A stretch of DNA of 64,000 nt, taken from positions 1 through 64,000 of the forward strand of contig JAIPBJ010000003.1 of assembly GCA_021739625.1 (NCBI GenBank), written 5' to 3'. The translations under genes and the position numbers were made by a program. This DNA is from Flavobacteriales bacterium (lineage in GTDB: Bacteria; Bacteroidota; Bacteroidia; UBA10329). Below are positions 7,444-14,551 of the stretch, one piece after another. Each line of letters opens with the position of its first letter. Position 1 is the stretch's first letter. The notes beneath the pieces were generated by a model. The model had not been told where the DNA came from. It made no database searches and saw nothing but the letters and a program-made list of their open reading frames with translations.

Positions 7444-8055
7444 TCAAACGAACCGCCTCACCTCGCGCTTGATCCCGTTCTTCACCTGTTCCCAAGTGAT
7501 GTTCTCCAAGCAATTGGGGTCTGGGCTTTCATCGGCATCAACAAAATAGGTGACGCTCTTCAGTACGTGGAAAATGTCTTCCGTTCCGAATTTTTGGCGA
7601 TAGAAGTCGAGCATCTCCGCAAATTGAAACTCACGGAATAGGAAGAACAGGTCGAAGAAATCCTTCTTGGCCGCCCTGCTTGAAATGGCACTGAGCTTCA
7701 TGGCACAGATGTCCTGTCGCCCTATCATGCGTATGCCATCGACCGTGACAGGTGCTTGGAGCAGCGGATAGGGATAATGCAGGATGTCCACCTTCACATC
7801 GTTCACACGAAGGTTCAGGGTCTTGATTCCTTTTTCAGCAATATCCACCTGATAGTGTTCCCGAAGTGCATCGAGCACTGCCTCGGCATCGAACTTGGCT
7901 GTGCTGAACAGGTCGAGGTCTATGGAAATGCGATGCCCTATCTGCAGGGATAGCGAGGTTCCTCCGACAAGCAGAAAACCTTCCAATTCAGGAAGCCGCA
8001 TCAGCGACCTCAGTAGTTCCAGTGTGCCCGGTTCAACTGTTTCAGTCCGTAGCAT
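7444..8055 (-). CDS. Nucleotidyltransferase, AbiEii/AbiGii toxin family
   Basis: FLLVGGTSLSLQIGHRISIDLDLFS matches the GGTxLxLxxGHRxSxDLDLF signature. Confidence 0.9.
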   Translation of the reverse strand: MLRTETVEPGTLELLRSLMRLPELEGFLLVGGTSLSLQIGHRISIDLDLFSTAKFDAEAVLDALREHYQVDIAEKGIKTLNLRVNDVKVDILHYPYPLLQAPVTVDGIRMIGRQDICAMKLSAISSRAAKKDFFDLFFLFREFQFAEMLDFYRQKFGTEDIFHVLKSVTYFVDADESPDPNCLENITWEQVKNGIKREVRRFV

Positions 8056-8306
8056 GTGAAGTTTTCGATGGGTGTGTCAAACAGGAATGCGGCAAAGTGC
8101 AGGGACTTCTCATTCAAGTAGCGTGTCTGCAATAGCACTTCCCGGATCTTGGCCTTGCCATAGATGCGCATGGATTCTTTCCAGTCGTCCCATGTGCCGC
8201 GTTCCAATACCCTCGGAATAATGGTGCGATAATCCCGCTCCAGATCTAACTTGGTCACATCATATTCCCAAAAAAGTTCTTTGCGGAGAAGCATACGGCC
8301 TTGCAT
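8010..8306 (-). CDS. Putative antitoxin / cognate partner of the AbiEii-family gene
   Basis: 98 aa ORF overlapping the start of the toxin ORF by 46 bp in the same orientation; small hydrophilic protein (YRTIIPRVLERGTWDDWKESMRIYGKAKIREVLLQTRYL). Confidence 0.65.
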   Translation of the reverse strand: MQGRMLLRKELFWEYDVTKLDLERDYRTIIPRVLERGTWDDWKESMRIYGKAKIREVLLQTRYLNEKSLHFAAFLFDTPIENFTCYGLKQLNRAHWNY

Positions 8307-8696: not shown

Positions 8697-9722
8697 ATGA
8701 ACAGAACAGGACTATTAGAAAAAGCCCTTCGCGAACGCATCCTTGTGCTGGATGGGGCGATGGGCACCATGATCCAACGCCATACGCTTACCGAGGAGGA
8801 TTTCCGTGGCGAGCGGTTCAAGCATCATAGCCATCCGCTGAAAGGCAACAACGACCTGCTCAGCATCACGCGGCCCGACATCATCAAGGGCATCCACGCT
8901 GCGTATTTCGAGGCCGGGGCCGACATTGCCGAGACCAACACCTTTAGCGGAACGGCTATCGCGCAGGCCGACTACGCCTTGGAGGATGCCGTGTATGACA
9001 TCAACTACCAGAGTGCGAAGATCGCCCGCGAGGTTGCGGACGAGTTCACGGCCCGCGAGCCGCACAAACCGCGCTTCGTGGCGGGCAGCATCGGCCCAAC
9101 GAACCGCACGGCCAGCCTCTCGCCCGATGTGAACGACCCTGGCTTCCGCGCAGTCTCGTTCAACGAGCTGAAGGATGCGTACATCTTTCAGGTGAAGGGG
9201 CTGATGGACGGTGGCGCAGACATCCTGCTGGTCGAAACGGTATTCGATACGCTGAATGCCAAAGCCGCGCTCTTTGGTATTGAAGAGTACTTCGAGCAGA
9301 TCGGCAGGCGCATTCCCATCATGGTCTCGGGCACCATCACCGATGCCAGCGGACGCACTCTGAGCGGACAGACCACCGAGGCATTCCTCATCTCGGTATC
9401 GCACATCCCGCTGCTTTCCATCGGGCTGAACTGCGCGCTCGGAGCCTCGGCCCTGCGTCCTTACTTGCAGGTGTTGGCCAAGAACGCCCCATTTGCTGTC
9501 AGCGCACACCCCAACGCAGGACTTCCCAACGAGTTCGGTGAATACGATGAGACCCCAGAACTCATGGCCCCACAGATTGAGGACTTCTTGAAGGAGAACC
9601 TCATCAATATTATCGGTGGATGCTGTGGCACAACTCCGGAGCACATCAAGGCGATTGCAGCAGTTGCGGCCAGATACAGTCCACGGTCGATAGACCATAG
9701 TCCGCAGATAATTGACGCATAA
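8697..9722 (+). CDS. metH: Methionine synthase N-terminal module (homocysteine S-methyltransferase), split MetH part 1
   Basis: 341 aa; [48 protein letters not shown]. Confidence 0.92.
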
Positions 9723-9734
9723 TTTCAGTTCATC

Positions 9735-10250
9735 ATGGAAATTCAACGGATAGAAGAGAAAATCTTTGAGGTCAGAGGCCACAAAGTGATGCTCGATTTT
9801 GACCTTGCGGAGCTGTACGGTACGGAGACCAAACGGCTTAAGGAGGCAGTTCGTAGGAACATCAGCAGGTTTCCTCGCGACTTCATGTTCGAACTCACCA
9901 ATGAGGAGGCCGAGAACTTGAGGACGCAATTTGCGACCTCAAGTCAGTGGGGTGGTAGAAGGTATAGCCCATTCGCCTTCACCGAGCAGGGCGTGGCAAT
10001 GCTCTCCTCTGTGTTGAAGAGTGACAAGGCCATCGAAGTGAATATCGCCATCATGCGGGCGTTCGTCTTCATGCGGCAGTACGCGCTCACACACAAGGAC
10101 CTGACCGAGAAGCTCACTGCGCTGGAGCAGAAGTACGACAAGCAGTTCGATGATGTCTATGGTGCGATTGAATTCCTCATGCGGAAGGACAGACAGGAAA
10201 CCGAGCAGAGAGAACGGAAACGCATAGGATACAGGACAGGCGAGGAATGA
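9735..10250 (+). CDS. ORF6N domain-containing DNA-binding protein
   Basis: 171 aa; VMLDFDLAELYGTETKRLKEAVRRNISRFPRDFMFELT...NLRTQFATSSQWGGRRYSPFAFTEQGVAMLSSVLKSDKAIEVNIAIMRAFV is the ORF6N signature. Confidence 0.95.
   Translation: MEIQRIEEKIFEVRGHKVMLDFDLAELYGTETKRLKEAVRRNISRFPRDFMFELTNEEAENLRTQFATSSQWGGRRYSPFAFTEQGVAMLSSVLKSDKAIEVNIAIMRAFVFMRQYALTHKDLTEKLTALEQKYDKQFDDVYGAIEFLMRKDRQETEQRERKRIGYRTGEE
9916..9944. repeat. 29-bp palindrome inside the ORF6N coding sequence
   Basis: ACTTGAGGACGCAATTTGCGACCTCAAGT; 13 of 14 arm pairs complementary; encodes LRTQFATSS. Confidence 0.85.
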
Positions 10251-10597
10251 AAGGCTTTCAACAAGTAGGTCGGAAACGCATGTCATCACAAACTGTGACA
10301 ACATTCCCGCTTTATGCGGTCGCAAACTGCGAACGCATCAGGCCATGCTTTTTGAACATGGCAAATTTGAGGTTGCATACTGAAACCTCAAACGGAGGGA
10401 TGCTTTCAAAGTGCAATCTCAGCACCTTAGAGAAAGGTTTGAGGTCGCAGATTGCGTCCTCAAGTGGTGATACGAAAGTGCTTGGTGTCATTGGAGAAAA
10501 TGTAAATGACCCAAATATGCGGTCACAGTCTGTGACTGCATCAGGCCACTATTCTCTAAGGACGCAGATTGCATCCTTAGAGGATTTAACGATATAG
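10247..10597 (+). CDS. Uncertain ORF overlapping the ORF6N stop (ATGA), with repeated LRSQIASS-like peptides
   Basis: 116 aa; MSSQTVTT, LRLHTETS, LRSQIASS, MRSQSVTA and LRTQIAS occur in one frame; starts within the ORF6N stop codon and ends 1 bp before the next ATG. Confidence 0.4.
   Translation: MKGFQQVGRKRMSSQTVTTFPLYAVANCERIRPCFLNMANLRLHTETSNGGMLSKCNLSTLEKGLRSQIASSSGDTKVLGVIGENVNDPNMRSQSVTASGHYSLRTQIASLEDLTI
10280..10582. repeat. Array of diverged palindromes related to the ORF6N internal palindrome
   Basis: Clear copies at 10280-10304, 10314-10338, 10366-10392, 10439-10463, 10517-10541, 10554-10582; weaker ones at 10342-10362 and about 10401-10435. Confidence 0.85.
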
Positions 10598-10598
10598 T

Positions 10599-11420
10599 TT
10601 GATTATGAGAACATCAAATTCCATTTGTTTACTCTGTCAAGAAAACCCTGCGGATAAAGAAAACTCGCATATCGTTCCAAAGTTTATGACCAAATCCATA
10701 CTTGGAAAATCCAGCGATAAACGGGGATACAGAGTTCTTTCAGATAGGCTACATGAGAGACCCGAATTCACACAAGATAGCGACAAGGAAAGCCATATTC
10801 TCTGCATATCCTGCGAATTATACTTCTCAGTAATAGAAACATACATCTCAACTCGGTTGCACAATAGAATTTGGGATATTCGACATCAAGAAAATTTCAT
10901 CTCTAACCAATCATTGGAAGGTACAGTCTATAAAGTATGCGCAGAAATCGACCCGCTTGTATTCAACCTTTTTTTATTCTCTATAGTTTGGCGTTGTAGC
11001 ATCACCTCATCATTCACCTTTTCAGATTTCAAAATAGGTGAAAGGGAGTCTGAATTAATACGGGTTGCTCTTCATTCGGTCAAAAGAACAAAGCAAAATG
11101 AACTAATTGAAAGGTTGGCATATCCGATAAACCCAATGCCAAAATTTCATTTCATATTGGCTACAGCAGAATACTTCCCAGATAGCTCAATGAACTTGGT
11201 CTGCTGGGATGAAGCAGATAATGATTGGTCATTCGTATTGTACCTGAACGAATACATACTTTGGGTTTCGTTTGACAACCATCCTCGGTTAAATGTATTT
11301 GAGTACCTGAACACTAATCATCAAAGCAATGTGAAGTTGGTGTTCTTATCAGTAGGACGATGGAACGAAGTTCGAGAAGCATTGCTTCATACTATATTCA
11401 AAAAGCATCCCATTCAGTAG
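10599..11420 (+). CDS. Hypothetical protein with two Cys-x2-Cys pairs (HNH-like N-terminus)
   Basis: 273 aa; CLLCQENPADKENSHIVPKFM ... CISC pattern resembles HNH/zinc-ribbon proteins; visibly AT-richer than flanking genes. Confidence 0.5.
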   Translation: MIMRTSNSICLLCQENPADKENSHIVPKFMTKSILGKSSDKRGYRVLSDRLHERPEFTQDSDKESHILCISCELYFSVIETYISTRLHNRIWDIRHQENFISNQSLEGTVYKVCAEIDPLVFNLFLFSIVWRCSITSSFTFSDFKIGERESELIRVALHSVKRTKQNELIERLAYPINPMPKFHFILATAEYFPDSSMNLVCWDEADNDWSFVLYLNEYILWVSFDNHPRLNVFEYLNTNHQSNVKLVFLSVGRWNEVREALLHTIFKKHPIQ

Positions 11421-11487: not shown

Positions 11488-14169
11488 ATGTCTGAAATCT
11501 CAATTCCCCCATTGCAGCTGAGCGGCCTCGAACCCCTCCAGATCTACGCTGGCTCCAACTTCATCAACGTTGGTGAAAGAACGAACGTGACCGGGTCGCG
11601 CATGTTCCTTCGTTTGATAAAGGAAGGCAAGTTTGAAGATGCGTTGGTCGTAGCCCGAGACCAAGTGGAAGGCGGTGCACAGATACTGGACGTGAACATG
11701 GACGAGGGCATGATCGATGGCAAGGAGGCCATGGTCAAGTTCCTGCACCTCATTGCTTCGGAACCAGATATTTCACGCATTCCCATCATGATCGACAGCT
11801 CCAAATGGGAGATCATTGAGGCTGGCCTGCAATGCGTGCAGGGCAAAAGCGTGGTCAACTCCATCAGCCTGAAAGAGGGCGAGGAGCAGTTCGTCCATCA
11901 TGCCAAGCTGGTGAAACGCTACGGGGCGGCCGTCATTGTCATGGCGTTCGATGAGCAGGGTCAGGCCGATAGCTATGAGCGCAGGATAGAGATCTGCAAG
12001 CGCTGCTATGACATTTTGGTGAACGTGGTGGGCTTCGCGCGTCAGGACATCATTTTTGACCCGAACATCTTCCCCGTGGCCACGGGCATGGAGGAACATG
12101 CTAACAACGCCTTGGACTTCTTTCGTGCCACCAAGTGGATAAAGGACAATCTTCCGGGCGCGAAGGTGAGCGGTGGCGTGAGCAACGTGTCGTTCTCGTT
12201 CCGTGGCAACGACCCCGTGCGCGAGGCCATGCACTCGGCCTTCCTCTACCATGGCATCAAGGCAGGCATGGACATGGGCATCGTGAACCCGGCCATGCTC
12301 GAAGTGTATGACCAGATCCCGAAAGAACTGCTTGAGCGTGTGGAGGACGTGCTGCTCAACCGCAGAGCCGATGCCACAGAGCGTCTGCTCGATTTCGCGG
12401 AGGGCTACAAGGGCGTGAAGAAGGACGCCAAGGAAGACCTTGAATGGCGGTCGCTGCCCGTGCGCGAGCGGTTGAGCCACGCCTTGGTGAAAGGCATCGT
12501 TGACCACATCGAGCAGGACGTGGAGGAATGCCGCCTGTCGATGGAGAAGCCGCTGCACGTGATCGAAGGCCCCCTGATGGACGGCATGAACATCGTGGGC
12601 GACCTCTTCGGGGCGGGAAAAATGTTCCTGCCACAGGTGGTCAAGAGCGCAAGGGTGATGAAGAAGGCGGTGGCCTACCTCCTGCCCTTCATGGATAGCG
12701 AGGCGGACGGCTCAGCATCGAAGTCGGGCAAAGTGCTGATGGCTACTGTGAAAGGCGATGTGCATGATATTGGAAAGAATATCGTTGGGGTCGTTCTGGC
12801 CTGCAATAATTATGAAGTGATCGACCTTGGTGTGATGGTCCCTGCCGAGAAGATCCTTCAGGCCGCCAAGGAGAACAAGGTCGATGTGATAGGTCTCTCC
12901 GGGCTGATCACACCCTCGCTGGACGAGATGGTGCATTTGGCGAAAGAAATGCAGCGCAGCAGCTTCACCATTCCGTTGCTCATTGGCGGTGCCACCACTT
13001 CAAGGGTGCATACAGCGGTGAAGATCGATGCGCATTACACCAACGATCAGGCCGTGCATGTGCTCGATGCCTCGCGGGCAGTGACGGTGGTCGAAAGGCT
13101 GCTGAGTGCCGACAAGAAGGCCTACGTGGACGGCATCAAGGCCGAATATGCCCAGATGCGCGAGATGCATGCCCGCAAGCAGCAGGACAAGAACCTCATC
13201 CCCATCAGCGAGGCACGGGCCAACCGTTTCCCCATCGCTTGGAAGGCGGAGGATATCCAAAAGCCGAAAAAGCTCGGCATCACGGAACTGAAGAATTTCC
13301 CGTTGGGGGAACTGGTGCCGTACATCGACTGGACGCCATTCTTCCAGACCTGGGAACTGGCGGGCCGCTATCCGCGCATCTTGGAAGATGAAGTGGTGGG
13401 CACGGAGGCAAAGAAGCTCTTTGCAGATGCACAGGCAATGCTCAACAGGATTGTTTCGGAGAAATGGCTCACTGCCAACGGAGTGGTCGGTCTATGGCCC
13501 GCCAACACGGTGGGTGACGACATGGAGGTCTATGACCCGTCCGACCCGTCAAAGAACATCGGCAAGTTCCATTCCCTGCGCCAACAGGGCAAGAAGGGAA
13601 CAGACGTGCCGAACATCGCATTGGCCGATTTCCTCGCCCCGAAAGATTCAGGGTTGCAGGATTACCTGGGCGGTTTCGTGGTGACCACGGGCATCGGCAT
13701 CGAGCAGAAACTGGCCGAGTTCGCAGCCGACCATGACGACTACAGCAGCATCATGCTCAAGGCACTGGCCGACCGCTTGGCCGAGGCATTCGCGGAGAAG
13801 CTGCACGAAATCGTCCGCAAGGACCTCTGGGGCTACGCTTCCGATGAATCATTGGACAACGAGAGTCTCATCAAGGAAAAGTACCGGGGCATCCGTCCTG
13901 CGCCCGGTTATCCTGCCTGCCCCGACCACACCGAGAAGCCCGAACTGTTCCGACTGCTCAATGCCACGGAAAACACAGGTACCATCCTCACTGAATCGAT
14001 GGCGATGATGCCCGCAGCGGCCGTCAGCGGGTGGTATTTCGGACATCCGGAATCGAAATACTTCGGCCTCGGCAAGATCTCAAAGGACCAAGTTGTGGAT
14101 TACGCCCAGCGGAAAGGCATGACGCTGGAGGAGGCGGAAAGGTGGTTGAGTCCTGCGTTGGGGTATTGA
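11488..14169 (+). CDS. metH: Methionine synthase C-terminal module (pterin-binding, B12-binding, AdoMet activation), split MetH part 2
   Basis: 893 aa; [67 protein letters not shown]. Confidence 0.95.
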
Positions 14170-14240
14170 AATCAATCATCAGATACTGTCCCCACCGAGG
14201 CATCGACACGATTGAACACTCCCCCTCACTAGTCCCGGAA

Positions 14241-14520
14241 GCATCAGTGCACCACACCGAAAACCCGGAACACGTCCCTGACGCATCAGCGTACCACCCC
14301 GAAAACCCGGAACACGGCTCTGACGCATCAGTGTACCACCCCGAAAACCCGGAACACGGCTCTGACGCATCAGCGTACCACCCCGAAAACCCGGAACACG
14401 TCCCTGACGCATCAGCGTACCACCCCGAAAACCCGGAACACGTCCCTGACGCATCAGCGTACCACCCCGAAAACCCGGAACACGGCTCTGACGCATCAGC
14501 GTACCATCCCGAAAACATGG
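14241..14520. repeat. 42-bp tandem repeat (six full units plus one partial)
   Basis: Units start at 14241, 14283, 14325, 14367, 14409, 14451, 14493; consensus gcatcagcgtaccaccccgaaaacccggaacacg[tcc/gct]ctgac. Confidence 0.95.
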
Positions 14521-14551
14521 GGTAAAACTGGGGGCTGTTCCCGGTGTGATA

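Follow-up and report, generated by a model that had tools for sequence, protein, structure and literature searches.

A palindrome inside ORF6N genes coevolves with the predicted DNA-reading residues of the encoded protein

The window (the whole 64,000-nt stretch of DNA analysed here) contains an ORF6N gene with a palindrome inside its coding sequence and palindromes of similar size immediately downstream, which raises the question of whether these palindromes are read by the ORF6N protein itself, fold as RNA or move as small DNA units. The initial annotation had left all three options open; its description of the locus is confirmed, with the palindrome inside the coding sequence at 9916–9944 and all six palindromes 3´ of the gene at 10280–10580.

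9735..10250, plus strand: ORF6N gene, 171 aa, matched by the PF10543 profile
9831..9845, plus strand: codons 33–37 (K R L K E), predicted recognition helix
9916..9944, no strand: in-gene palindrome with core 25-mer 9918–9942, TTGAGGACGCAATTTGCGACCTCAA; predicted operator of the gene's own protein
9948..9965, plus strand: codons 72–77 (W G G R R Y), predicted wing

The 171-aa product belongs to PF10543 by profile search (E 3.6e-38), scoring 130.2 bits against a curated cut-off of 27.8. Its best phage family is PHROG 4792, which is labelled 'antirepressor', its viral fold matches in BFVD are KilA-N, Bro-N and antirepressor proteins, and the PADLOC profile PDC-S05 matches it with an E of 1.7e-60. 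An AlphaFold2 model of the monomer (mean pLDDT 81) contains helices at residues 21–28 and 32–41, strands at 51–53 and 80–83, and a loop at 67–79. In this model residues 33, 34 and 37 are located on the second helix of a helix-turn-helix, and residues 72–77 form a wing-like loop ahead of the last of these strands, the wing being modelled at lower confidence. The protein is thus predicted to consist of a winged-helix DNA-binding domain followed by C-terminal helices. Structure comparison returned no significant PDB homologue of the model, and a sequence search against solved structures gave no match; the predicted fold and the coevolution described below agree with each other on a putative winged-helix mode of DNA binding. 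The palindrome spans codons 62–69 (LRTQFATS), where the helix that precedes the wing ends, about 180 nt past the start codon.

To place this arrangement among homologues, 244 ORF6N genes were compared, drawn from relatives, 80 named genome contigs and 41 viral contigs; most of the genomes are metagenome assemblies, and the phyla covered include Bacteroidota, Omnitrophota, Nitrospirota, Desulfobacterota, Acidobacteriota, Gemmatimonadota, Verrucomicrobiota and others. In 226 of the 244 genes, across multiple phyla and phages, the homologous codons hold a palindrome in which 9 or more of the 11 arm pairs are complementary; 18 genes have no clear palindrome. It nearly always occupies the homologous place, at a median of 198 nt past the start, and 217 of the 226 palindromes are in frame 0. 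Arm positions are paired in 94% of cases at the site, compared with 26% (at most 41%) at the remaining offsets within these genes, and a comparable palindrome is found in 215/244 ORF6N genes versus 44/508 neighbouring ORFs. The initial annotation would have given up its idea of a system if homologues lacked both the in-gene palindrome and downstream copies, or if covariation had no support beyond shared ancestry. This is clearly not the case: the palindrome and the covariation are present in homologues. Downstream copies, common at the window locus, are not a general feature.

The two arms change together strictly by Watson-Crick rules, synonymous sites included. Double changes occur in 10 of the 11 arm pairs across the genes, and the covariation score is 0.68, compared with 0.17 after shuffling and about 0.1 when the site is slid. 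When synonymous codons are permuted among genes, the number of pairs falls from the 2243 observed to an expected 1904 ± 11, which indicates that the protein sequence alone is insufficient to produce the palindrome. Among Thr codons that face AGG, ACC is used 91 times and ACT once, and a T at position 17 faces A9 in 105 genes and G9 in none. Because synonymous G-U pairs are essentially absent, an RNA hairpin is unlikely and the constraint appears to act on double-stranded DNA with two-fold symmetry; mismatches in the arms are of the A-C type in 47 cases and of the G-T type in 24. In six genes the palindrome lies at the homologous place in another reading frame, where it encodes an unrelated peptide (e.g. 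EVITNCDNLPE). A second in-frame palindrome, often of a different class, was seen in the wing region of six loci (L114, L115, L129, L135, L167 and L185).

The bases of the half-site follow a small number of residues outside the palindrome. By mutual information, corrected for background and with the residues encoded by the palindrome left out, position 9 is linked to residue 37 (z = 24) and residue 34 (z = 18), and position 8 is linked to these two as well; position 6 goes with residue 33, position 5 with residues 77 and 33, and positions 1–3 with residues 72–76. Residues 33, 34 and 37 of the predicted recognition helix thus covary with the inner half-site positions 6, 8 and 9, and the wing residues 72–77 with the outer positions 1–5. 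An earlier assignment of positions 5–6 to residue 36 (K or N) is superseded by the mutual information for residues 33 and 77. At positions 8 and 9, R34/E37 goes with CG in 56/57 genes, [VATI]34..Q37 with CA in 110/110, [YQ]34..R37 with GC in 20/21 and N/K with TC in 9/9; elsewhere in the half-site K33 goes with G in 121/121, R76 with G in 148/149 and K76 with A in 38/40. TTGAGGACGCAATTTGCGACCTCAA is the sequence that this code gives for K33, R34/E37, R76 and Y77, and the strongest site predicted for the window protein is TTGAGG(A/T)CGCANNNTGCG(A/T)CCTCAA.

These tables were first derived from the data that had suggested them, and out-of-sample and sister-pair tests came afterwards. Relatedness among the genes was addressed with 112 disjoint nearest pairs. 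At positions 8–9, pairs with the same DNA have the same residues in 57 cases and different residues in none, while pairs with different DNA have the same residues in 6 and different residues in 49 (p = 2e-25). The table from the first set predicts positions 8 and 9 in 94 of 95 genes of the second set, compared with 72 and 61 for the nearest neighbour. The six other-frame genes also agree with the helix code (positions 6, 8 and 9), among them the discriminating R/E (CG) gene, L244. Constraint on the palindrome at the DNA level and its coevolution with DNA-reading residues are, as judged from sequence, well supported. There are 46 code classes among the ORF6N specificities. Over-dispersion of specificities among paralogues is not significant, since a code is shared by 2 of 66 same-genome pairs versus 3.6 expected. 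One locus (L080, in genome G044) carries three tandem ORF6N genes with a different in-gene half-site in each.

Three sister families were sampled in the class Bacteroidia and a few named phages. Palindromes are found in 25/30 KilA-N, 27/30 RhuM and 25/30 Bro-N genes, where codon shuffles lead to an expectation of about 2/30; in enlarged samples with a threshold of at least 9/12 pairs, which include some chance palindromes elsewhere in the genes, the counts are 79/81 for RhuM, 71/78 for Bro-N and 33/35 for KilA-N. In RhuM, the residue 19 before the dyad matches the base at distance 4 (K-C 19/19, E-G 17/17, L-A 10/10, R-C 8/8) and the residue 7 after the dyad that at distance 10 (E-C 37/37, D-T 19/19). 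Single pairings of this kind are R-C in Bro-N, for the residue 11 before the dyad (22/22), and N-T in KilA-N, for the residue 26 before the dyad (16/16). The code is thus replicated in part, and the equivalent sites of each sister family follow a code of their own. KilA-N examples outside the Bacteroidota come from Staphylococcus phage EW and the Streptococcus satellite phages Javan279 and Javan625, in which the palindrome lies 188–191 nt past the annotated start.

Downstream of the window gene, the six palindromes differ in the residues to which the code would assign them.

10280..10304, no strand: array palindrome 1, ATGTCATCACAAACTGTGACAACAT; other specificity class
10314..10338, no strand: array palindrome 2, ATGCGGTCGCAAACTGCGAACGCAT; near the resident protein's own code at positions 3, 5, 6, 8 and 9
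10367..10391, no strand: array palindrome 3, TTGAGGTTGCATACTGAAACCTCAA; N..L-type class
10439..10463, no strand: array palindrome 4, TTGAGGTCGCAGATTGCGTCCTCAA; exact fit to the resident protein's predicted code
10517..10541, no strand: array palindrome 5, ATGCGGTCACAGTCTGTGACTGCAT; x..Q-type class
10556..10580, no strand: array palindrome 6, CTAAGGACGCAGATTGCATCCTTAG; K76-type outer arm with an own-type CG core
10247..10597, plus strand: open frame of 116 codons over the array, no family match
10605..11420, plus strand: gene with the array in its upstream region, no assigned function; possible regulated cargo

Six such sites in about 330 nt are far beyond chance, because base-shuffled downstream flanks of ORF6N loci yield about 0.6 per 126 kb. 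The match of 24 of 25 positions that had been reported for the copy at 10439–10463 is consistent with our count of 26/27 at 10439–10465 against the reverse complement of the in-gene site. The further suggestion that the array was seeded by copying from the gene is not needed, as the copies belong to several specificity classes that are found within other ORF6N genes. On the basis of the code, the array is best described as a cluster of putative ORF6N-type operators, in which site 4 would have the resident specificity, site 2 nearly so and the others partly. An origin as remnants of former ORF6N genes was rejected, as no trace of flanking ORF6N codons surrounds the copies. The open frame over the array begins within the ORF6N stop codon, and five of the six palindromes share this frame and read as LRSQIASS-like peptides; the frame may be coincidental. 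A possible seventh, degenerate palindrome, CTTTCAAAGTGCAATCTCAGCACCTTAGAGAAAG, lies at 10403–10436 and is similar to the LRCNFSTLE class of another locus (L140).

Extra copies are also found beside other ORF6N genes. Upstream there are 45 intergenic copies (1.4 expected), most of them 30–100 nt ahead of the start codon; downstream there are 19 (0.6 expected). The exact own code is present in 19 of these 64 copies, compared with 4.6 by chance, although the match to the own code by mean score is weak, and most of the nearby extra sites are probably not meant for the resident protein. They were also tried as operators of paralogues in the same genome, with 0/38 fits in the sampled genes. A second near-copy of the own site within 700 nt is found for 31/217 ORF6N genes and almost never for RhuM and Bro-N genes, which indicates that classical promoter-operator autoregulation is not general and, from the RhuM and Bro-N genes, that the in-gene site is the essential one. 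Restriction-modification genes are rarely linked to ORF6N in a motif scan. One locus (L051, about 1435–1525, in genome G090) has two clear and one degenerate ORF6N-type palindromes and no ORF6N gene; none was detected in that genome either, and this orphan array resembles the one in the window.

Taken as a whole, these data, all of them computational, probably describe a homodimeric ORF6N protein whose operator is embedded in its own gene, with repression of that gene and silencing of like copies. The ORF6N homodimer would bind through its winged helix to the 25-bp palindrome within its own coding sequence, with helix residues 33, 34 and 37 setting the inner half-site and wing residues 72–77 the outer half-site, and a change of specificity in the protein would be followed by a matching change in the embedded operator. 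Bound at the in-gene site, the protein would act as a roadblock to the elongating polymerase and so repress its own gene, and other gene copies of the same specificity would be silenced by it. As operator and reader occupy one short stretch, they would travel together. The array in the window could add repression, titration or a coupling of the gene at 10605 to ORF6N-type proteins. That the protein physically binds the site, forms a dimer, represses its gene and silences others in trans is inferred, as is what the array does, and these parts differ in likelihood. That the ORF6N protein binds its own in-gene palindrome is very probable; the evidence for self-site recognition is coevolutionary throughout (a near-deterministic code with sister-pair and out-of-sample tests), and it strongly supports the option, already raised by the initial annotation, that the palindromes are binding sites of this protein. 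Autorepression as the main consequence of the in-gene site is plausible, with a good deal less certainty. A scan for promoters and terminators gave no signal above chance.

Three explanations dispense with binding by the ORF6N protein. The palindrome could be an mRNA hairpin that acts in translational control or processing, with the downstream copies as further hairpins; arms of 11–14 bp around a 3-nt centre could fold, and transcribed leaders or trailers contain some of the copies. However, the pairing is strictly Watson-Crick, with almost no G-U even where it would be synonymous and with A-C mismatches in excess of G-T, an Rfam search gave no match, and the sequence is forecast by predicted helix-turn-helix residues, which recognition of a structure alone would not require. 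Despite the covariation, we consider a structured RNA the least probable of all the alternatives. The covariation might instead be internal to the protein, if the peptide encoded by the palindrome packs on residues 33, 34, 37 and 76 and the symmetry of the DNA is a side effect; indeed, the encoded residues vary along with the DNA, and in frame-0 genes the two effects are linked. Such packing leaves the complementarity of the arms at synonymous positions unexplained, does not account for the six other-frame genes, whose unrelated peptide still goes with a fitting helix code (R..E with CG in L244), and is at odds with Gln-A and Arg-G pairings, which are typical of DNA recognition, so that it is very improbable. 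An equally slim chance is given to small mobile units of the Rickettsia palindromic element (RPE) or REP type, inserted in and beside the gene. Intergenic copies, extra in-frame palindromes in some wing loops and one array without an ORF6N gene in its locus speak for them, yet the palindrome occupies a single homologous position in about 93% of genes in many phyla, no transposase is linked, and the sequences follow protein residues. In the 3.69-Mb genome of the window, seven loose matches (≤3 mismatches) were found, of which five lie within the ORF6N locus and one other in an ORF6N-like fragment, so that the family is essentially confined to the locus, and the low copy number and the linked gene, which is ORF6N, do not fit a REP/RAYT system. 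Both the hairpin and the Rickettsia-type unit of the initial annotation thus find no support.

Two further alternatives accept the binding and differ on its use. The protein might bind the in-gene site to mark the gene for replication or segregation, or to provide a target for defence or incompatibility when further copies of the gene come in, rather than for autorepression. The in-gene copy is practically the sole local site in RhuM and Bro-N, members are carried by phages, the window protein matches the candidate defence family PDC-S05 and the specificities are very diverse, all of which would suit such a role; against it, isolated chromosomal genes occur without replication or partition partners, and same-genome paralogues are not significantly more different than chance. 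We consider it rather unlikely, though with a real share of the probability. The array, in turn, may be specific to the resident ORF6N protein and serve either its titration or the regulation of the gene that follows. It has six sites within about 330 nt right upstream of the gene at 10605, with an exact own code at site 4 and nearly so at site 2, but sites 1, 3, 5 and 6 carry, at one or more positions, half-sites assigned to other residues, and no second ORF6N gene was found in the genome. A resident-specific array is accordingly doubtful, if slightly less so than a role other than repression, and regulation of the gene at 10605 as cargo via the array directly upstream is a guess. Returning to the embedded operator, its extension to the whole of ORF6N, KilA-N, Bro-N and RhuM is tentative: each gene may carry the site of its own protein in the codons beside the DNA-reading helix, so that specificity and address would be inherited and exchanged together, copies of the own gene would be controlled or excluded, mutually invisible specificities would result, and local arrays would be collections of addresses.

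Proteins with a binding site within their own coding sequence are known. The iterons of oriLambda lie inside the lambda O gene, and parS can lie inside the gene of ParB/Spo0J itself. Those sites serve replication or segregation and vary little, whereas in ORF6N the specificity is particular to each gene and no replication or partition partner was seen. The proposed control is closer to that of Lac repressor, in which operator O3 supports roadblock autoregulation at the end of lacI (PMC3711431). In that system, as in the one proposed here, the repressor occupies a symmetric site at the gene that encodes it, from which it can block its own transcription. It comprises one gene and one site, however, while the ORF6N-type site lies within the codons of the DNA-binding domain, occurs in the majority of genes in four families and changes in step with the recognition residues. 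Rickettsia palindromic elements and REP sequences are likewise short palindromes that are partly in frame inside genes and partly extragenic; the ORF6N palindromes are not dispersed, have a fixed homologous position and a sequence dictated by helix and wing. By sequence, the window protein is a member of the phage antirepressor and regulator families ORF6N, KilA-N, Bro-N and RhuM/Rha, for which the open-access papers searched describe neither DNA sites nor an embedded operator and report no measured binding or repression. PDC-S05, the profile of which the protein matches, is itself a computational defence candidate, and validation is pending for most PADLOC PDCs (PMC12988326).

If the embedded operator is real, the genes of thousands of uncharacterised regulators, from phages and bacteria alike, could be used directly to read off the DNA-binding specificity of their products, and natural sequences would suffice to fit a protein-DNA recognition code without a binding experiment. 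Families that are annotated as antirepressor, virulence protein RhuM or candidate defence would gain a concrete molecular target, namely the gene that encodes each protein and the relatives of that gene. Unusually, too, a regulatory DNA site would then shape a conserved protein segment, because the arms constrain the amino acids that they encode.

In its genome, the ORF6N gene at 9735–10250 is the only one detected. A second palindrome of the family (G000:C19:5041–5065, locus L007, minus-strand frame) lies at the beginning of an ORF that is otherwise unrelated, where it encodes LKSQNATSSW; it seems to be a fragment left by a former ORF6N gene of a different specificity. ORF6N and the array sit between two adjacent methionine-synthase genes (8697–9722 and 11488–14169). 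In congeners this gap (loci L261–L266) is nearly empty (G003 and G007) or is occupied by another small gene (G001, G004, G006 and G008), which makes it an insertion hotspot. The small gene was judged by eye to resemble a four-helix-bundle (23S intervening-sequence) protein. On the minus strand at 7444–8306, near the insertion, an AbiEii-type nucleotidyltransferase gene adjoins a DUF6922 gene, and the two are likely a toxin-antitoxin-like pair. Right after the second methionine-synthase gene, 14179–14525 encodes a short tandem protein repeat on the plus strand (HPENPEHVPDASAY-like); the minus strand is open as well, and the stretch is minisatellite-like.
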